Origin: Bacilli bacterium
Lineage (GTDB): Bacteria > Bacillota_I > Bacilli_A > RF39 > UBA660
DNA: 64,000 bases
Assembly (NCBI GenBank): GCA_017484205.1
Contig: JAFUTO010000010.1
Location: 62,001 to 126,000 of the forward strand
Reading direction: 5' to 3'
The notes under the pieces were generated by a model. It saw only the letters and a list, made by a program, of their open reading frames with translations. It did not search any database and was not told the origin of the DNA. The translations under genes and the position numbers were made by a program. Shown piece by piece: positions 24,769 to 49,764 of this stretch (position 1 is the first letter of the stretch; every line of letters begins with the position of its first letter).

Positions 24769-26438
24769 TTTATTTCCTCCTCTGTATATTCTACAATATT
24801 ATCGAACAATTCTGTTATTTCTGACTTTTTTTCTTCAACTTTCTTTTCTACTTTATTTTTTACTTGTTCTTCTACATATTCATATTTTTTCTTTTTATTA
24901 TTAAAATCATCTTTTATATTTTCCCATTCATCATCGGAAACAGCAATAAGTCTATATTTTTCTTTTATTGATTTATATAATAATGCCTCGATGTCATTCA
25001 AAGATTTATTGAATGTTTCAACATCAGTCTCGTTACTATAAACATATATTATATATTCATCACTCGCAGCTTTTATTTTGCCATCTAATAATAATGCCGC
25101 ATATTTACCATATTTATCATCTAATAAATAAAGTCTAATAGATTCACTTTTTTCTTTCAAGTTCATCATTATTTTCTTGTTCAAACGCGCTAAAGTATTA
25201 TTTATTCTAATATCTTTTATAGAATTATCTACTAAAGTTACTTTTTCTGCAATATTTTCACTTTTTAGTGGTACCTCAGAAGAAGTAGAATTATTTTCCT
25301 TTATTTCTTCTCTTATAGGTTCATTGTTTTGCTTTTTTATTTCCTGGGAAATATTTATATTATTTTCAATTCCTAAAAATTTTAATATTTCTATTTCAAA
25401 TAATGTCTTTATATTACTACTATCTTTCATAGTATTCTTTAATTCATTTAGATTTGTTATTAGATTATAAATATCATTATTAGCTATTTCTTTATTTAAA
25501 TTCTTATATGGTTCTATATTAATTTGATGTAAAGTTAAATAATTAGGTGTTGTTTTATACAACAACATATTCCTAAGAAAAAATATTATTTCATCCAACA
25601 ATTTGTAAATATTTTTACCATCATTATTATATTTATCTAATAAATTCAGTGTATTTTCCATATTTTTTGAAAATATTGTATCCATAAATTCACTTAAATC
25701 TTTTTGAGTTATTGTACCATTGACAGAATGAACATCTTCAATTGTTATATTTTCTTGTTTATATGCAACCACTTGATCTAAGATACTTATTGAATCTCTC
25801 ATCCCACCATCAGATATGCGAGCAATTTCATATAAGGCATCTTCTTTAATTTCGATCTTTTCTAATTTACAAATTTCTTCTAGTCTTGTCACTATTTTTT
25901 CATCGGATATACGTTTAAAGTCGAAACGTTGACATCTAGATAAAATAGTTGAAGGTAACTTTTGTGGTTCTGTTGTTGCTAGTACAAATATTACATGTTC
26001 AGGCGGTTCTTCTAATGTTTTTAATAGAGCATTAAATGCGCCTGTACTAAGCATATGCACTTCATCTATAATGTATACTTTATATTTTGAATTGCTTGGC
26101 ACCAATGTGATTTTACTCTTTAAATTCCTTATTTCATCAACACCATTGTTTGAAGCAGCGTCAATTTCTATAATGTCTGTAGATTGTTTATTTTTAATAA
26201 GTGTACAAGATACACAATTGTTGCATGAATGTCCATTTGTATAGTTTTCACAGTTTACATTTTTAGCAAATATCTTAGCAACACTTGTCTTACCAGTTCC
26301 TCTTGGCCCTGTAAATAAATATGCATGGCTGATCTTGTTATTTTGAATTGCATTGGTTAAAGTTTTAATAATTACATCCTGACCAATTACTTCTTCAAAT
26401 TCACTAGGTCTATATTTTCTGTATAATGCCTGATACAT
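24765..26438 (-). CDS. dnaX: DNA polymerase III gamma/tau subunit
   Basis: Clamp-loader ATPase that also organises the replisome. Seen (557 residues): Walker A FTGPRGTGKTSVAK near 43-54, four-cysteine zinc module near 63-77 (CENYTNGHSCNNCVSC), Walker B YIIDEVHML near 115-123, SRCQRFDFKR sensor near 164-173. A variable, charged tau-specific C-terminal half follows. Start at 26438 follows GGAAGGTGATAAT; an earlier ATG at 26453 overlaps that ribosome-binding site. A Noc-site-like palindrome lies inside the gene at 25339-25352. Confidence 0.95.
   Translation of the reverse strand: MYQALYRKYRPSEFEEVIGQDVIIKTLTNAIQNNKISHAYLFTGPRGTGKTSVAKIFAKNVNCENYTNGHSCNNCVSCTLIKNKQSTDIIEIDAASNNGVDEIRNLKSKITLVPSNSKYKVYIIDEVHMLSTGAFNALLKTLEEPPEHVIFVLATTEPQKLPSTILSRCQRFDFKRISDEKIVTRLEEICKLEKIEIKEDALYEIARISDGGMRDSISILDQVVAYKQENITIEDVHSVNGTITQKDLSEFMDTIFSKNMENTLNLLDKYNNDGKNIYKLLDEIIFFLRNMLLYKTTPNYLTLHQINIEPYKNLNKEIANNDIYNLITNLNELKNTMKDSSNIKTLFEIEILKFLGIENNINISQEIKKQNNEPIREEIKENNSTSSEVPLKSENIAEKVTLVDNSIKDIRINNTLARLNKKIMMNLKEKSESIRLYLLDDKYGKYAALLLDGKIKAASDEYIIYVYSNETDVETFNKSLNDIEALLYKSIKEKYRLIAVSDDEWENIKDDFNNKKKKYEYVEEQVKNKVEKKVEEKKSEITELFDNIVEYTEEEIK
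25339..25352. promoter_or_regulatory. Noc-binding-site-like palindrome inside dnaX
   Basis: ATTTCCTGGGAAAT differs at one position from the B. subtilis Noc site ATTTCCCGGGAAAT. It lies in coding sequence, as many Noc sites do. A Noc-type protein is encoded at 48027-49742. Confidence 0.45.
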
Positions 26439-26489: not shown

Positions 26490-26568
26490 ATGTTGCTCGT
26501 GGAACATTTAAATTATGTTGCTCGTGGAACATTGTCCAAAAAAAACGATAATGTTGCTCGTGGAACAT
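26490..26568. repeat. Three-copy parS-like cassette A
   Basis: Three direct copies of TGTTGCTCGTGGAACA at 26491-26506, 26516-26531 and 26552-26567. Each matches the B. subtilis parS consensus (TGTTTCACGTGNAACA) at 14 of 16 positions. The whole cassette recurs at 27123-27199 with nearly the same spacing. The third copy is embedded in the tadA terminator stem. Function as partition site is inferred. Confidence 0.6.
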
Positions 26569-26573
26569 TATCT
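26538..26573 (-). terminator. Intrinsic terminator of tadA, built around a parS-like site
   Basis: Minus strand GATAATGTT ... AACATTATC with the loop region of the 16-mer repeat between, then CG and T run. The left arm begins within the tadA stop codon. Confidence 0.7.
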
Positions 26574-26984
26574 TTTATTTTTAAAAAAATTTTTAATTAA
26601 AGATTCATATTCTTCATTATATATTTGTTTATAACGTATGTTTTTATCCTCTATTTTCGTCAAATAACCATATTTAGGACTTTTAATACAATAATAAACA
26701 TTATTTATGTGTGATTGTACAATTGCTGAGGTACACATCATACATGGTTCTAATGTAACATATAATTCACAATCGTTTAAATAAGTAGTTTTAAGTTTTT
26801 TACAAGCTTTTCTTATAGCAACTATTTCAGCATGAGCGGTTACATCTTTATATCTATATTTTTCGTTTGAAGCTTTTGATATTATCCTATTATTTTTTAC
26901 AATTACAGCTCCAACTGGAATATCTGCATGTTTAGAAGCTTTATAGGCGTATTTTAATGCAATATTCATATATTTTTCTTCCAT
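26568..26984 (-). CDS. tadA: tRNA adenosine deaminase TadA
   Basis: Converts A34 to inosine in tRNA-Arg(ACG). Deaminase zinc motifs: TAHAEIVAIRKA near 50-61 and LEPCMMCTSAI near 80-90. The 138-residue length fits. Start at 26984 follows AGAGGTG; the longer in-frame reading upstream runs into the SRP RNA. The order SRP RNA-tadA-dnaX matches many Bacilli. Confidence 0.93.
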   Translation of the reverse strand: MEEKYMNIALKYAYKASKHADIPVGAVIVKNNRIISKASNEKYRYKDVTAHAEIVAIRKACKKLKTTYLNDCELYVTLEPCMMCTSAIVQSHINNVYYCIKSPKYGYLTKIEDKNIRYKQIYNEEYESLIKNFFKNKR

Positions 26985-27006
26985 ATTAGCACCTCTTAAC
27001 AAAAAA

Positions 27007-27077
27007 GCACACACATTTATTGATTGTTAAGGCTGCTATCTTCCGATTCTGACCTGGTTCCAATATAAATGTTGTGC
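27007..27077 (-). ncRNA. ffs: Signal recognition particle RNA, small (4.5S-like) type
   Basis: The conserved SRP S-domain is plain on the minus strand: ACCAGGTCAG, then ATCGGAAGAT with the GGAA tetraloop, then AGCAGCC. The 5' end GCACAACATTTATATTG pairs with the 3' end CAATAAATGTGTGTGC, closing one long hairpin. A T run follows at 27006-27001 as terminator. Promoter at 27084-27112 places +1 at 27077. At about 71 nt it is shorter than E. coli 4.5S (114 nt) and lacks the Alu domain of B. subtilis scRNA. Position between gyrA and tadA/dnaX is as expected. Confidence 0.92.
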
Positions 27078-27083
27078 ATATAT

Positions 27084-27112
27084 AATATATAATATATATA
27101 TTTAAATTGCAA
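27084..27112 (-). promoter_or_regulatory. Promoter of the SRP RNA
   Basis: Minus strand -35 TTGCAA (27107-27112), 17-nt spacer, -10 TATATT (27084-27089), start 7 nt later at G27077. Confidence 0.65.
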
Positions 27113-27122
27113 GTAAATTTTA

Positions 27123-27199
27123 ATGTTGCTCGTGGAACATTTGAATTATGTTGCTCATGGAACATTGTCACAAAAAAGGTAATGTTGCTCGTGGAACAT
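27123..27199. repeat. Three-copy parS-like cassette B
   Basis: Second copy of the cassette at 26490-26568. 16-mers lie at 27124-27139, 27149-27164 (one change, CTCATGG) and 27183-27198. Intervals between starts are 25 and 34 bp here and 25 and 36 bp in cassette A. Flanks such as AATTATGTTG and ACATTGTC are shared too, indicating duplication of about 80 bp. The third copy forms the gyrA terminator stem. Confidence 0.6.
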
Positions 27200-44094: not shown

Positions 44095-44124
44095 AGACAA
44101 GGCTTTAACCTTGTCTTTTTTTTT
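44093..44124 (+). terminator. Intrinsic terminator of mnmG-rsmG
   Basis: AAAGACAAGG, loop CTTTAA, CCTTGTCTTT and further T. It overlaps the 3' end of the convergent glycosyltransferase gene. Confidence 0.8.
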
Positions 44125-45019
44125 CGAATTTTTCTAAAAAATTTTTAAACTTGATATCAGGATATTTATCAAATCTTGCATAAATTATTTCATACTTTTC
44201 TTTCTCATAGAATAAACTTTCATATTTTAAATAATCTTTATATAAATCTTTACTCCATTCTATAATTTTATTATTTTTGTTTTCTAAACAATATCTTCTA
44301 AACATAAACCCAAAAGAGTCCAACGCTAAAAAACTTATATTTCTCTTATTAAAGTTTCTTTTTTCTCCCTCAATAATTGCCCAATGCATATTATATGCAT
44401 ACCATTTTAAACTTTCTAGATGATAATTATCATCTTTCCTTGTTATTGAATTTTTATTATTTTTATATAAATATATATCATCATTTGAAAATAATAATTT
44501 AGGATTAGCAAGTAATACTAGCTGATTAAATGCATTGTCTTCACTACTTCTAGTATCATTAAACTTAATTTTATTTTTTTCTAGGAACTCTCTTTTATAT
44601 ATTTTTCCATGTAAGCATCCTTGATGATTATTTGAAATAAAATAACCACCATTTTCTTCTTCATACATCATTCCACAAACCATGTCAGCATCATTATCTT
44701 TAGCAATGTTATATATATTTTCAATAGAAAAAGGATCAAAGAATACATCATTACTATCAATAAATATAATATATTTTCCATTAGAATTATCAATTCCAAT
44801 TTGTCTAGCAGTACCGGGACCACTATTTTTTTCTAGTTTTAATTCTTTAATATTAATTTTATTTTTAAATAATTCTATCTCTTTATGATAATCATTTTCA
44901 GAAAAGTCATTAACTATATATACATTAAACAACTCTTTTATATTTTGTAGACAAATACTTAAAAGAGTTTTATTAATAGTATCATGAGCATTGTATGCTG
45001 GAATAATTATATCAATCAT
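44105..45019 (-). CDS. Family 2 glycosyltransferase (copy 1, altered DxD)
   Basis: GT-A fold glycosyltransferase of 304 residues. N terminus IDIIIPAYNAHDTI is the family-2 nucleotide-sugar start. KNSGPGTARQ near 60-69 and the metal motif region IIFIDSNDVF near 78-87 follow, where the expected DSD reads DSN. The acceptor-side ED of RSSEDNAFN is at about 157-165. No membrane segment, so it is probably cytosolic. The upstream paralogue shares long identical DNA stretches, indicating tandem duplication. It overlaps that gene by 4 nt. Donor and acceptor are unknown; an adjacent Asn/Ser/Thr-rich protein is a candidate acceptor (inference). Confidence 0.85.
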   Translation of the reverse strand: MIDIIIPAYNAHDTINKTLLSICLQNIKELFNVYIVNDFSENDYHKEIELFKNKINIKELKLEKNSGPGTARQIGIDNSNGKYIIFIDSNDVFFDPFSIENIYNIAKDNDADMVCGMMYEEENGGYFISNNHQGCLHGKIYKREFLEKNKIKFNDTRSSEDNAFNQLVLLANPKLLFSNDDIYLYKNNKNSITRKDDNYHLESLKWYAYNMHWAIIEGEKRNFNKRNISFLALDSFGFMFRRYCLENKNNKIIEWSKDLYKDYLKYESLFYEKEKYEIIYARFDKYPDIKFKNFLEKFEKKRQG

Positions 45020-45966
45020 GCTACCACCTTATCTAATAAAACTAGAAAATCATTAAAAGTAATGATAGGATTTAATAAAAAATATTTGTTATCATCATTG
45101 TAGTAATTTTTGTATTGATTGTCTAATAATTCAATTTTCTTGTTATTATCTATATCATATTTTTTAGATATAATTTTAAGCTGTCTTGCTTCTTTTAATA
45201 ATTCCTTAATATCATCTTTTTTATAATATTCTAAATATATAAAATAAATAAATATTAATGACATATAAGAAAGTTCACCTATATATTTTTTATTCCAATT
45301 ATTTTTGATAGCTTTATCAAGGGCCCATTTTATATTAAAAATATAACCTAAAACTCCATTATATCTAAATTCATAATCATTTTTTCTAGTTATAGAACTT
45401 TTATTATTTTTCCATATATATGTCTTAACATCAATATATTTTGTTTTAGCTCCTGCTAATAATATAGTTTGATTGAACCCATTGTCTTCATTTGATCTAC
45501 TATTATTGAACTTGATATTATTTTTTTCTAAAAATTCTCTTCTATATATTTTTCCGTGTAACCAAATAGTATTATTGTTTTTATCTATAAAACCATTATC
45601 TGTCTCTTCTAAGAAATTGCTTATAATAACATCATAATTTGATTTATTAATTTCATTAAATAATGATGAAATCGATATGGGACTTGAAAATACATCATCA
45701 CTATCAATAAATATAATATATTTTCCATTAGAATTATCAATTCCAAATTGTCTAGCAGTACCAGGACCACTATTTTTTTCCAATTTTAATTCTTTAATAT
45801 TTAAAAAATTAGAAAAAAAGTTAATGATGACATCATAATTAGAATCAGATGCATCATTAACAATATATATATTACAATTATTTGCAATATCTTGATATGC
45901 AATAGAAAATAAAGTTTCCTCAATAGTGTTATGGGCATTATAAGCTGGAATAATTATATCTATCAT
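45016..45966 (-). CDS. Family 2 glycosyltransferase (copy 2, intact DxD)
   Basis: Paralogue of the downstream gene, 316 residues. Shared start IDIIIPAYNAHNTIEET, shared KLEKNSGPGTARQFGIDN and intact IFIDSDDVF near 79-87 with the DxD metal site. RSNEDNGFN lies near 156-164. C-terminal half is helical and less conserved between the copies. It lies 26 bp downstream of the Asn/Ser/Thr-rich gene and 4-nt overlapped with copy 1, so all three form an operon on the minus strand, against replication direction. Role unknown; protein or cell-surface glycosylation is plausible. Confidence 0.87.
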   Translation of the reverse strand: MIDIIIPAYNAHNTIEETLFSIAYQDIANNCNIYIVNDASDSNYDVIINFFSNFLNIKELKLEKNSGPGTARQFGIDNSNGKYIIFIDSDDVFSSPISISSLFNEINKSNYDVIISNFLEETDNGFIDKNNNTIWLHGKIYRREFLEKNNIKFNNSRSNEDNGFNQTILLAGAKTKYIDVKTYIWKNNKSSITRKNDYEFRYNGVLGYIFNIKWALDKAIKNNWNKKYIGELSYMSLIFIYFIYLEYYKKDDIKELLKEARQLKIISKKYDIDNNKKIELLDNQYKNYYNDDNKYFLLNPIITFNDFLVLLDKVVA

Positions 45967-45992
45967 ATCTAATTCCTTTCATTATTTTAATT

Positions 45993-47021
45993 TTAAGAAT
46001 TTTTGTTATTTGAATTTATACTATTTAAATCAGTATAACCCATTGCAACACCATCTTCATAGATTAAAGCTGTATTATCATCGACAACTTTATAAGTTAA
46101 GTTTCCATTATCTCCCCAATATTGTTTATGAATAGCATTTTCATTATAGAAATTGCCATTTTGTACATCATATTTGTTACTTGCAATCTTAGAAAAATCA
46201 ATATCTTCTTTATTAATATTACCAGTATCGCCAATACTTTGTGTATCGCCTACACTATTATTATAATTTGCTGTATTTACATTACTTGCACCAGTAGTTG
46301 CATTCGAACCTGAAACTGAGTTTCCTTTAAAATAACTATTGTTTGAATTTGAAACAGTATAGTTATTATTAGAACTATTGTTGCTAGTTGATTTATTTTG
46401 ACTATAATAAGCACTATTTGAACTAACAGTAGAATTATTATTTTGACTTATAGTTGTACTAGCAGAATTATTTGATCTAGCAGTTGAAGTATTACTAGTA
46501 CTATAGTATGATGAGTTATTATTTTGACTTACAGTTGCGCCAGTAGAATTATTTGATCTAGCAGTTGAAGTATTACTAGCGCTATAATATGTTGAATTAT
46601 TACTTTGACCTACAGTTGTATTACCTACATTAGAAGCGGAATAACTTGATGAAGTATTAGGATTAGTTGCAATATTAGCAGCAGAAAATTGTTTATTTAA
46701 AGTATCATTTGCCGCTTCAATTACTCCAATAGTCTCATTTTTAAGTTTTCCTACAGCATTTTCAATACGATGAGTTTGTTGATTATTATTATTTAAATCT
46801 AAATTTAAATTTTTAACTGCATATTCATAAGTATCTTGAGTAACTAGCTTACCTGCATATGTACTATTTGGTGTACTATCAAATTCCATTGTTTCTATTT
46901 TTAGATTAGTCGGCCCATCATTTAAATATGTGTTAGGATTTGTCCAGGAATCTATTTTGCTACTGAATTCTTCCCCACGTAGTTCTTTTATTGCATTTTG
47001 AATAGTAATTTTATCATCCAT
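45993..47021 (-). CDS. Asn/Ser/Thr-rich repeat protein of unknown function
   Basis: Not recognised. 342 residues in three parts. A mixed N-terminal region (1-115, with helical NAIKELRGEEFSSKIDSW) comes first. A low-complexity core of about 155 residues dominated by Ser, Asn, Thr and Tyr follows, with a 27-residue tandem repeat (YYSASNTSTARSNNS, then SQNNNS). The C-terminal region of about 70 residues is more ordered, with YKVVDDNTALIYEDGVAMGY. There is no signal peptide, membrane segment, LPxTG or cysteine. The repeat is also visible in DNA, with an 81-bp period around 46465-46580. GGAG precedes the ATG by 6 nt. Operon with two glycosyltransferases suggests a glycosylated substrate (inference). 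Confidence 0.7.
   Translation of the reverse strand: MDDKITIQNAIKELRGEEFSSKIDSWTNPNTYLNDGPTNLKIETMEFDSTPNSTYAGKLVTQDTYEYAVKNLNLDLNNNNQQTHRIENAVGKLKNETIGVIEAANDTLNKQFSAANIATNPNTSSSYSASNVGNTTVGQSNNSTYYSASNTSTARSNNSTGATVSQNNNSSYYSTSNTSTARSNNSASTTISQNNNSTVSSNSAYYSQNKSTSNNSSNNNYTVSNSNNSYFKGNSVSGSNATTGASNVNTANYNNSVGDTQSIGDTGNINKEDIDFSKIASNKYDVQNGNFYNENAIHKQYWGDNGNLTYKVVDDNTALIYEDGVAMGYTDLNSINSNNKNS
46465..46580. repeat. 81-bp-period coding repeat in the Asn/Ser/Thr-rich gene
   Basis: The string GAATTATTTGATCTAGCAG begins at 46465 and again at 46546, with nearly identical sequence of about 34 bp after each start. It encodes the 27-residue repeat, so copy number could vary between strains. Confidence 0.65.
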
Positions 47022-47051
47022 AATATTCTCCTTTATCTATTAATTAATATA

Positions 47052-47080
47052 ATTATACCAAAATATTTGTTTTTTTTCTA
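47052..47080 (-). promoter_or_regulatory. Promoter for the repeat protein-glycosyltransferase operon
   Basis: Minus strand extended -10 TGGTATAAT (47052-47060), with TAGAAA at -35 (47075-47080). It is back to back with the promoter at 47087-47114. Confidence 0.5.
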
Positions 47081-47086
47081 TATAAT

Positions 47087-47114
47087 TTGACAAATGTATT
47101 TATTGTAATATAAT
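47087..47114 (+). promoter_or_regulatory. Promoter for the internally duplicated protein gene
   Basis: TTGACA (47087-47092), 16-nt spacer, TATAAT (47109-47114), 28 bp before the start codon. Confidence 0.7.
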
Positions 47115-47141
47115 ATTTTTCATAAAAAGGGGGAAAATACT

Positions 47142-47906
47142 ATGAGGATACTAGAAAACTATATAGAAAAACATTACTTGATAAATAATCAATATAATCA
47201 TTTTAAAATAGTAAAGGAACCACTATCAGAAAATCCTCTATCGCAAGAAGAAAACTTAATAAGGGCTCGTTTCTATACTAGAGTTGCTGAGTTGACTGTT
47301 GATGGATTAGTTCATGAAAATAATGAAAATTATTCAAATTATATATATTTTGGTCAAAGGGAAAATACTGAGGAGTACTTAGAAAAAAGTGCAAAAAAAG
47401 AAAATTTAGAAAATTTAAAAAAATTTTTTGCGGGTGCCAAATATTTAAGTGTTAATTCCCTAGGTGATTGTTATGCTATGAAACCAAGTGATGCTATATA
47501 TGATGAACTTATAAAAAATGTTGAAACTAGACATTATATTGAAAAAAAATATATTGATAAGACAAAAAAAGTGGAAGAAATATATGATGATAATTTAGAT
47601 TTAAGCGATGATGGCTTAATAGGTTATAGATTATTTGATAGTAAATATATTAGTTTTAATGGCAAATCATATTTAATAGAAAATTTAGATGTTACGTATT
47701 GGGTATATTTTGGTAAAAGATTATCATATCAGGAAGTGATTTCTTTGAGTAAAGATTATTCTAAATATGATAAAGTGTTAGAAATAATGAAGAAATTCAA
47801 TATTAAAGATGTTTGTGAAGTAGCTGATGGTAAATATTTTCCACTTACATCAATTGATAAGACTTATGATGAGCAAAAAGAACAAAATAAATTGCTTAAA
47901 ATATAA
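47142..47906 (+). CDS. Unknown protein with two copies of an 80-residue module
   Basis: Not recognised. 254 residues, soluble, no signal peptide. Two related segments are visible: about 40-122, with YSNYIYFGQR and DCYAMKPSDAIYDE, and about 160-244, with VTYWVYFGKR and GKYFPLTSIDKTYDE. The common pattern is YxxYFGxR, about 25 residues of Lys/Glu-rich helix, a Gly-x-x-(Y/F) turn and YDE at the end. A good promoter and a terminator frame it as a single-gene unit between the glycosyltransferase operon and noc. It faces away from the repeat protein with a shared intergenic region. Confidence 0.65.
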   Translation: MRILENYIEKHYLINNQYNHFKIVKEPLSENPLSQEENLIRARFYTRVAELTVDGLVHENNENYSNYIYFGQRENTEEYLEKSAKKENLENLKKFFAGAKYLSVNSLGDCYAMKPSDAIYDELIKNVETRHYIEKKYIDKTKKVEEIYDDNLDLSDDGLIGYRLFDSKYISFNGKSYLIENLDVTYWVYFGKRLSYQEVISLSKDYSKYDKVLEIMKKFNIKDVCEVADGKYFPLTSIDKTYDEQKEQNKLLKI

Positions 47907-47907
47907 T

Positions 47908-47930
47908 ACTCGACAAATGTCGAGTTTTTA
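47908..47930 (+). terminator. Intrinsic terminator after the duplicated-module gene
   Basis: ACTCGACA, loop AA, TGTCGAGT and T run. Very stable 8-bp stem. Confidence 0.75.
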
Positions 47931-47965
47931 TTTCCTGGAAAATATTTCCCAAAATATTTCCCAAA
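47930..47965. promoter_or_regulatory. Noc-site-like palindrome plus tandem half-sites upstream of noc
   Basis: ATTTCCTGGAAAAT at 47930-47943 matches the Noc site ATTTCCCGGGAAAT at 12 of 14 positions. Two direct 12-bp repeats ATATTTCCCAAA (47942-47953 and 47954-47965) follow, each containing the left half-site. They end just before the -35 of the noc promoter, suiting autoregulation. Confidence 0.5.
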
Positions 47966-47969
47966 AATA

Positions 47970-47998
47970 TTGCTTTATTTTCAAATATAATGTAATAT
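47970..47998 (+). promoter_or_regulatory. Promoter for noc
   Basis: -35 TTGCTT (47970-47975), 17-nt spacer, -10 TAATAT (47993-47998), about 29 bp from the start codon. Confidence 0.45.
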
Positions 47999-48026: not shown

Positions 48027-49742
48027 ATGGCTGAGACAGCAAACTCAAGAAAAGTTATAGATTTACCTATTGATGATGTTCTTCCTAATAGGTATCAACC
48101 GCGTATTAAATTTGATGATACTGCGATTTTTGAGTTGAGTGAATCTATTAAAGCTCATGGAGTATTTCAACCTATAATAGTAAGACCAATAGGTGATAAA
48201 TATGAGATTATTGCTGGCGAAAGAAGATATAAAGCAAGTGTCTTAGCTAATAAAGAAACAATACCCGCTATCATAATGAACCTTAATGATAAGGATTCAA
48301 TTGAGATTGCGCTTATAGAAAATGTACAAAGATCTAATTTAACACCTATCGAAGAAGCTATTAGTTATAAGAAAATTTTAGATATGGGATATATTAAGCA
48401 AGAGGATTTAGCCCACAAATTGGGAAAAACCCAATCAACAATAGCAAATAAAATAAGATTGTTAAATTTAGATGAAGATGTTCAAGAAGCTTTGTTAGAA
48501 GGAAAAATATCAGAAAGACATGCAAGATCATTACTTAGATTAAAGAATATAGATAATCAAAAAATAATGTTAAAAAGGATAATTAATGAACGTCTAACAG
48601 TAAGAGTAACAGATGAGGAGATTGAGAAAATGATGAATAATGATATAAATGGTGGTTCGCCAATGATTGAACAACAAAATTCGACTATAATTCCAACTGA
48701 GCAACCAGCTCAAATGTCCCCAGTAGTGGAAGATATTCCATCACAAAATAATAATGTTTTTATGGATGTAAAACCAGTAAATTCTGTTTTTGGGTTTAAT
48801 AGTAATGAGATTATTAATACAAATCCAAATGCAAGTGCTAATACTTCTACAGTAATAGCCTCTACTCCAGCTTCTGAAACACCTAGTATAGAAGCTACAA
48901 AAATGGATATAGAAAAAATAGAAAATGAGGCTTCACCAGTGTTTGAAGAAAAACCATTGGCAAAAATGGATGAGTTACTAAAGTCTGCGACTCCAGTAAT
49001 GCCTACAAATAATGCTTCAATGCAAGAAAATGAAGAACAAGAAGATCCTGCAAGTGTTTTACAACCTGGTAAATTCTTTAATTTCCCAGAGTCAAGCGAA
49101 CCGGCACCAACACCATTAGAAACTCCATCTAATGAAGAAAAAGGATTTGCGTTTAATAATTTTGCTCAACCTGATTCTAATCAACAACAGGAGTATGTTC
49201 AACCAGAACAAAATCAATCAATGTTTAATTCAGTTACACCAGCAACCCCAGAAGTTTCTCCTATCCCAGTAGTGCCAACTGTTGAACCAACTATGCCATT
49301 TGAATCTTCAGTTTCTCAGGAAGTTCAACCAAATATTCCTACAACATCAATTATGCCTGAGGTTAATGCTTCAGTAGAGCCAACACCAATTCAACCGGCT
49401 CAAAATTTTGATAGTTTATTTGCAACTCAAAGCTCAGATAAAATGGACACAGAAGAAGTGGTTATCCCATCAACTATGCCATCTTTTCTTGAGACTAATG
49501 ATAACACTATTCCAGCAGCAATGCCAGCTTTAGAACCAACTATTCCAATGAATTCCAACTTTGCTGTACCATCACAACAACCAGCAACCCCAGAAGTACC
49601 AGCGCCAAGAAATATAATGAGTGCTGTAAGTGTTATTCGTGAAGCAGTTCAAAAGTTAGAACAATTAGGTTATACAGTTGATGTAGATGAAATTGATTTA
49701 GAAGCAATGTATCAATTAATTATAAAAATAGATAAAGATTAG
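48027..49742 (+). CDS. noc: Nucleoid occlusion protein Noc (ParB family) with long disordered linker
   Basis: ParB/Noc CTPase-clamp family, expected to bind specific DNA sites and keep the division septum off the nucleoid. N-terminal domain with GERRYKA at 64-70 and ENVQR at 98-102, then HTH domain about 120-205. The four residues that separate Noc from ParB specificity read Gln136 (KTQST), Lys142 (ANKIRLL), Asn147 and Arg164 (SERHAR), against Q/K/K/R in Noc and R/T/A/G in ParB. The last 43 residues (VIREAVQKLEQLGYTVDVDE, YQLIIKI) match the Noc dimerisation domain. Between lie about 310 residues rich in Pro, Gln, Ser, Thr and Glu. The N-terminal amphipathic helix of B. subtilis Noc is missing. 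571 residues, about twice the norm; near rsmG as in Bacillus. Confidence 0.85.
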   Translation: MAETANSRKVIDLPIDDVLPNRYQPRIKFDDTAIFELSESIKAHGVFQPIIVRPIGDKYEIIAGERRYKASVLANKETIPAIIMNLNDKDSIEIALIENVQRSNLTPIEEAISYKKILDMGYIKQEDLAHKLGKTQSTIANKIRLLNLDEDVQEALLEGKISERHARSLLRLKNIDNQKIMLKRIINERLTVRVTDEEIEKMMNNDINGGSPMIEQQNSTIIPTEQPAQMSPVVEDIPSQNNNVFMDVKPVNSVFGFNSNEIINTNPNASANTSTVIASTPASETPSIEATKMDIEKIENEASPVFEEKPLAKMDELLKSATPVMPTNNASMQENEEQEDPASVLQPGKFFNFPESSEPAPTPLETPSNEEKGFAFNNFAQPDSNQQQEYVQPEQNQSMFNSVTPATPEVSPIPVVPTVEPTMPFESSVSQEVQPNIPTTSIMPEVNASVEPTPIQPAQNFDSLFATQSSDKMDTEEVVIPSTMPSFLETNDNTIPAAMPALEPTIPMNSNFAVPSQQPATPEVPAPRNIMSAVSVIREAVQKLEQLGYTVDVDEIDLEAMYQLIIKIDKD

Positions 49743-49764
49743 GATGATAACTCATCCTTTTTTT
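49741..49764 (+). terminator. Intrinsic terminator of noc
   Basis: AGGATGA, loop TAAC, TCATCCT and T run, beginning at the stop codon. Confidence 0.75.

Follow-up and report, generated by a model that had tools for sequence, protein, structure and literature searches.

What might a Noc protein do when it carries no membrane helix of its own? Noc is described as a helix-dependent protein, with binding sites spread chromosome-wide, that blocks division over all but the terminus. The window analysed here (the whole stretch of DNA, 64,000 nucleotides in length) encodes a Noc-like protein (Table 1) for which an earlier, sequence-only reading had suggested that a long disordered linker might stand in for membrane tethering; the order to which it belongs, probably RF39 of GTDB, consists of uncultured and, we presume, gut-associated bacteria.

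Identity of the gene product

We regard the open reading frame as real, given the ribosome-binding site (GGGGAG) that precedes its ATG, the short gap of four in-frame codons between the previous stop and the start, and the terminator-like hairpins on either side. A wrongly assigned start codon, hiding a helix, was considered and rejected, as there is no room for one upstream in the window. AlphaFold and an alignment of 53 orthologs delineate two confident domains (residues ~6-210 and 528-570), joined by a linker of ~317 residues with pLDDT values mostly <50. Pfam matches in the protein are to ParB_N and HTH_ParB; the best Foldseek matches of the N-terminal domain are the Noc structures 7nfu, 7ol9 and 7ng0, and the CTPase + HTH domain is 46-49% identical to solved Noc structures, so that sequence and fold agree in pointing to Noc as the nearest solved structures. 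CTP binding and sliding as a clamp are predicted from the conserved CTP motifs, and would follow from the behaviour of the family, which undergoes CTP-dependent clamp loading at Noc-binding sites (NBS) and then slides (PMC8429893).

In a maximum-likelihood tree of 103 sequences, a 100/98 split divides Noc from ParB, and the orthologs of the order make up a clade of their own (98/96) among the Noc sequences. Gln, Lys and Arg occupy the three decisive DNA-reading positions in 89/94 orthologs. The residues of the window protein were correctly stated by the sequence-only reading, which had thought Asn147 noteworthy; the resulting set, QKNR, is in fact the commonest in the order (47 of 94 orthologs) and also occurs in 6/44 Noc proteins of other taxa. 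A change of specificity through Asn147 was rejected, Asn being ordinary here in about half of the order’s orthologs; moreover, a single Lys at 179 or 184, the permissive positions, is enough for NBS reading (PMC7383237). The C-terminal segment, proposed earlier as a Noc-type dimerisation domain, indeed aligns with canonical Noc C-termini (hhalign 98%, E 2e-13) as against 2% for those of ParB. The best NCBIfam model is TIGR04285 (Noc), matched by 53/53 orthologs; the window protein scores 273 bits, under the curated cut-off of 315 bits, over profile positions 1-197 of 255 only, the match stopping at 197 because the linker separates the C-terminal part. Neither the parS-reading residues (R...G) nor a ParB C-terminal domain was found in the window protein, and the ParA-binding N-terminal motif (LG-R/K-GL), absent from it, is present in the genome’s separate ParB, which belongs to a complete parA-parB operon.

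Judged by its ancestry and its predicted DNA specificity, the window protein is a Noc. The two outcomes named earlier as speaking against this assignment, a ParB phylogeny and parS specificity, were checked computationally and leave it standing, with exact NBS in 50/58 related genomes. We class the protein as a Noc variant and not as a canonical membrane-binding Noc, since the helix is missing, the NCBIfam score falls under the cut-off and the sites lack the usual spread.

Table 1. Features of the noc locus and of the origin region in the window
Feature	Position	Strand	Basis or remark
dnaA	34690..36093	-	oriC beside it
NBS variant ATTTCCTGGGAAAT inside dnaX	25339..25352	+	
Candidate centromere, six copies of parS variant TGTTGCTCGTGGAACA	26491..27198	.	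around tadA and SRP RNA
Terminator-like hairpin 5' of noc	47908..47925	+	
NBS-like site ATTTCCTGGAAAAT upstream of noc	47930..47943	+	2 mismatches
Two ATTTCCC half-sites, possible operator	47944..47962	+	just upstream of -35-like hexamer; kept in the genus’s other genome
-35-like hexamer	47970-47975		3' of ATTTCCC half-sites
noc-like CDS, 571 aa	48027..49742	+	Noc is best family match
ParB_N CTPase + HTH domain, residues 6-210	48042..48656	+	PF02195, PF17762; pLDDT mostly >90; Foldseek
CTP-binding motif GERRYKA, residues 64-70	48216..48236	+	GERR and A70 unchanged across 53 orthologs
CTP-binding motif ENVQR, residues 98-102	48318..48332	+	E98, N99, R102 invariant
NBS-reading residues Q136, K142, N147, R164	48432..48518	+	residue comparison; role per PMC7383237
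Disordered Pro/Ser/Glu/Asn-rich linker, residues 211-527	48657..49607	+	AlphaFold pLDDT mostly <50; composition
Linker motif A, TKMDIEKIENEASPVFEEKPLAKMDELLKS, residues 291-320	48897..48986	+	PSSM leave-one-out; AlphaFold; profile match E 2e-13
Linker motif B, PGKFFNFPESSE, residues 347-358	49065..49100	+	degenerate copy; profile match E 4.6e-6 (profile including the window sequence)
Noc-type C-terminal dimerisation domain, residues 528-571	49608..49739	+	AlphaFold; C-terminus comparison
Terminator-like hairpin 3' of noc	49741..49758	+	

The missing helix and the linker

An N-terminal amphipathic helix was predicted in all Noc homologues examined previously (PMC4331003), and MKxxFS[RK]FFG-like starts, along with short C-terminal parts, are typical of the proteins from named Bacillaceae, Paenibacillaceae, Staphylococcaceae and others. 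In the window protein and in all 94 distinct orthologs of its order, by contrast, the sequence enters the conserved domain after just a few residues, and none of the 94 has such a helix; what had been noticed in one protein is thus order-wide and not peculiar to a single genome. Relocation of the helix into the linker was rejected, as the linkers do no better than shuffled sequences in a membrane-helix test (5 vs 7 of 94 pass). A helix-free Noc can still contact the membrane through a partner, and the absence of the helix is no proof against such contact.

The linker, which had been put at roughly 310 residues, is similarly no oddity of one protein: linkers run from 78 to 471 aa across the 94 orthologs, and most of the 146 genomes covered by an order-level scan contain a Noc-type ORF of ~335-764 aa. 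The canonical ParB of these genomes keeps a length of ~295 aa (289-306 aa in nearly all), and this constancy marks the expansion as specific to Noc.

Two motifs recur within these linkers, when scored by a position-specific matrix in leave-one-out fashion, with shuffled controls, over the 94 orthologs. Motif A (consensus roughly PGFxD[IV][DN]KIxxxAxDI..P.ADIDxLL) is found in 68/94, no copy being recognisable in the other 26/94; for motif B (roughly N[KR]FFNFLEDEAANMNM) the corresponding figures are 49/94 and 45/94. Both motifs stand far above the shuffled controls, and A precedes B in 40 of 41 orthologs. AlphaFold predicts helices in the window linker at residues 295-301 and 315-317 and at no other point, all of them within motif A; the window’s copy of motif B falls below threshold in leave-one-out scoring, and reaches its tabulated E value only with a profile that includes the window sequence. 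When the motif A profile was run against 41 genomes, strong matches were almost exclusively to Noc. Searches of both profiles against solved structures gave nothing credible, and other weak genome matches (Mur-ligase-like genes, a small membrane protein and others) look, on inspection, like chance.

Both motifs are acidic (mean charge -1.8 for A and -1.5 for B) and fail as membrane helices, the discriminant being passed by 0/68 copies of A and 1/49 of B; together with the behaviour of whole linkers against shuffled sequence, this leads us to read motifs A and B as putative protein-docking sites. Motif B does resemble canonical Noc N-termini in its core, [KR]FF in the one and SRFFG in the other. 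Of the ways in which the linker had been imagined to replace membrane tethering, recruitment of a partner therefore gains from the two conserved, ordered motifs, whereas a membrane-binding role of the linker itself finds no echo in its helix scores; a plain spacer role (‘extending reach’) is harder to square with a length that varies so widely while the motifs stay.

DNA sites around the replication origin

In earlier work parS was found to be origin-restricted and NBS widely distributed over the chromosome (PMC7383237). In the present order, the exact NBS core, TTTCCCGGGAAA, occurs 1-20 times per genome in the 50 genomes that have it, against 0 for the reversed control. None of the 46 NBS mapped on dnaA-bearing contigs is more than 26.5 kb away from that gene, 26 further listed NBS being unplaced as their contigs are without dnaA; such dnaA-proximal NBS are present in 17/21 genomes, as compared with 2.8 expected. 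In the single-contig genome G142, NBS with up to one mismatch are found where its parS sites also lie, at a distance of ~8-14 kb from dnaA; 200 kb sampled far from dnaA yielded none. These counts are of exact or 1-mismatch matches in fragmented draft genomes, obtained by pattern search and from sampled stretches; variant sites are undercounted in them, and weak sites in other places may have escaped.

Detailed reading of 20 origin regions places parS in the gyrA-tadA-dnaX interval, with NBS lying between the parS sites in many. G015 has eight parS-NBS pairs, 45-47 bp, and in G023 thirteen NBS alternate with twelve parS; further NBS are found inside dnaX, or in rsmG near noc. Those within dnaX were suspected of being a coding coincidence, an idea rejected because their offsets within the gene differ between genomes. 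Over 19 of these loci, 38/64 NBS have a parS no more than 250 bp away, where uniform placement inside the loci would give 3.9. As the presence of sites was what led to the choice of loci, the figure bears on arrangement only; 21 of the 38 come from two array-rich genomes, and such close NBS occur in 12/19 loci. Exact NBS and parS joined in a composite site (≤35 bp) occur in 11/54 genomes of the order, compared with 0/341 other Bacilli (P 1e-10). The position of the NBS strongly suggests that this Noc would act at the origin, beside ParB; our literature search found no paper describing origin-confined NBS that alternate with parS.

Some genomes of the order (G094, G140 and G157, together with a few others) have ParB but no Noc match. 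As these three share one genus (g81), the loss there may be real.

In the window itself the GC skew switches at about 36 kb, beside dnaA, and its genome holds variants of NBS and parS but no exact copy of either. The dnaX of the genus’s other genome also holds a one-mismatch NBS. Ahead of noc, the half-sites and the NBS-like site suggest possible autoregulation. The parS variant TGTTGCTCGTGGAACA starts at 26491, 26516, 26552, 27124, 27149 (1 mismatch) and 27183, and the candidate centromere so formed is shared with the other genome of the genus (variant recorded also at L251:1568-2293), with other members of the order having parS/NBS at the same place. A small SRP RNA (26991-27088, minus strand) sits within it, between tadA and gyrA. 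The ParB of the genus that uses this variant has R-I-R-S at its specificity positions, and it is possible that ParB and parS have co-evolved there. The window’s NBS variants are not interleaved with its parS variants; the window fits the origin-proximal rule, and not the tight interleaving.

Nor does noc lie directly beside rsmG, as had been thought: 3.9 kb with four ORFs intervene. On its minus strand, the stretch 44105-47906 encodes two glycosyltransferase-2-like proteins and one rich in Asn and Ser; it also holds a 254-aa ORF without a Pfam match. A reversal of GC skew at 44-46 kb suggests that DNA has been inserted where rsmG and noc usually meet.

A proposed function, and comparison with known systems

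Synthesising these observations, we lean towards a model in which this Noc ortholog is an origin-region DNA clamp that does not bind the membrane directly, and is coupled to another process by a partner docked on its linker. Noc would load at NBS with CTP and slide on the same origin-proximal DNA as ParB; the linker, positioned between the clamp and the C-terminal dimeriser, would then dock at least one partner through motifs A and B, a step suggested by the motifs alone. Such partners might belong to the division, replication or segregation machinery, and one could be a membrane protein. Rather than spreading over the entire nucleoid, as its counterpart in Bacillus subtilis does, Noc would then link newly replicated origin DNA to a further process, whether origin-focused occlusion, replication control or segregation.

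We also consider, as possible but rather unlikely, an ordinary nucleoid-occlusion Noc that reaches the membrane indirectly, its motifs binding a membrane-anchored protein so that the Z-ring is blocked at origin DNA. Occlusion in B. subtilis requires both Noc and its recruitment to the membrane, for which a foreign helix suffices (PMC4331003), and Noc acts jointly with Spo0J under a block to early replication (PMC6852036). Motif A is, furthermore, carried by a single-pass membrane protein of G020 (L174:2769-3422; profile E 2.5e-5), although sharing a motif suggests a shared partner rather than direct contact, the sharing is clear in this one case only, and the homologue in the window’s genome (G000:C10:7095-7616, L183) is without motif A. 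A few origin-restricted sites would, in addition, leave most of the nucleoid unprotected. The family of the G020 protein, present in ~20/58 genomes of the order, has acidic disordered tails, many ending DD.WKF, and one member that we tested has no Pfam match.

Less probable again is a replication-control factor acting on DnaA from origin-proximal sites, in the manner of Staphylococcus aureus Noc, which controls initiation (PMC5540599); every mapped NBS is indeed near dnaA, but the sites of S. aureus do not form a single cluster beside parS, and we found no link to DnaA here. That the linker might be a neutral, low-complexity expansion without a role, leaving the folded domains to do the usual work of Noc, we think improbable: its variable length and composition would allow it, as would the tandem repeats of the L009, L014 and L008 linkers (e.g. 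MPSFETPVEQQPMEP units), which point to recent expansion, but two ordered motifs stand far above shuffled controls, and the expansion is fixed across an order whose ParB is unexpanded. A second canonical ParB/Spo0J, binding parS and partitioning via ParA, is highly improbable, for despite NBS lying among parS sites the protein has the residues, C-terminal domain and clade of Noc, lacks the ParA-binding motif, and coexists with a complete parA-parB operon.

How the helix-free state arose is a related matter. It has been suggested that Noc originated by the grafting of a helix onto a duplicated ParB (PMC7333895, a review). Helix-free Noc-like proteins of Clostridia (L112, L119, L140 and others) occupy near-basal positions on the Noc side of the tree or fall between the two families, and the state seen in the order could be either old or a loss. 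We speculate, tentatively and with more doubt than conviction, that a helix-free Noc with NBS inside the ParB centromere constitutes a two-protein centromere, a state not described before, which may date from soon after the duplication of ParB, preceding both the helix and the spread of sites, with NBS derived from parS copies within the array.

Noc in this order may thus depart from its textbook description. A whole order that keeps Noc and exact NBS without the helix, with sites confined to the region of the ParB centromere, would mean that DNA recognition is separable from membrane occlusion; the role of Noc without a membrane, and its possible origin as a second centromere protein, become testable questions, with the linker motifs as a handle for finding the missing partner.

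Set against known systems, the order’s Noc recalls the short Noc-like proteins of Clostridia and Erysipelotrichia (Anaeromonas, Clostridium RGIG206, Eggerthia, Holdemania), which have Noc-type residues and no obvious helix but lack the long linker. It shares with chromosomal ParB/Spo0J and its parS cluster the clamp fold and the clustering of sites near the origin, and differs in its site, residues and C-terminal domain, in having no ParA-binding motif, and in coexisting with a separate canonical ParB. S. aureus Noc, which serves both occlusion and replication control, belongs to the same family and likewise has NBS biased to the origin side; there, however, 41 binding loci are distributed nearly all within the origin-proximal half of the chromosome (PMC5540599), as opposed to the few exact sites per genome recorded here, those mapped lying close to dnaA. 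The Noc of B. subtilis and Geobacillus is matched in its CTPase + HTH domain, NBS-reading residues, NBS sequence, C-terminal domain and mnmG-rsmG-noc neighbourhood; the order’s protein departs from it in the absent amphipathic helix, in the two added linker motifs, and in a C-terminal part far longer than the ~100 aa in all that follow the RHA motif of canonical Noc, while NBS that in those bacteria are spread over the chromosome are here few, origin-restricted and often interleaved with parS.
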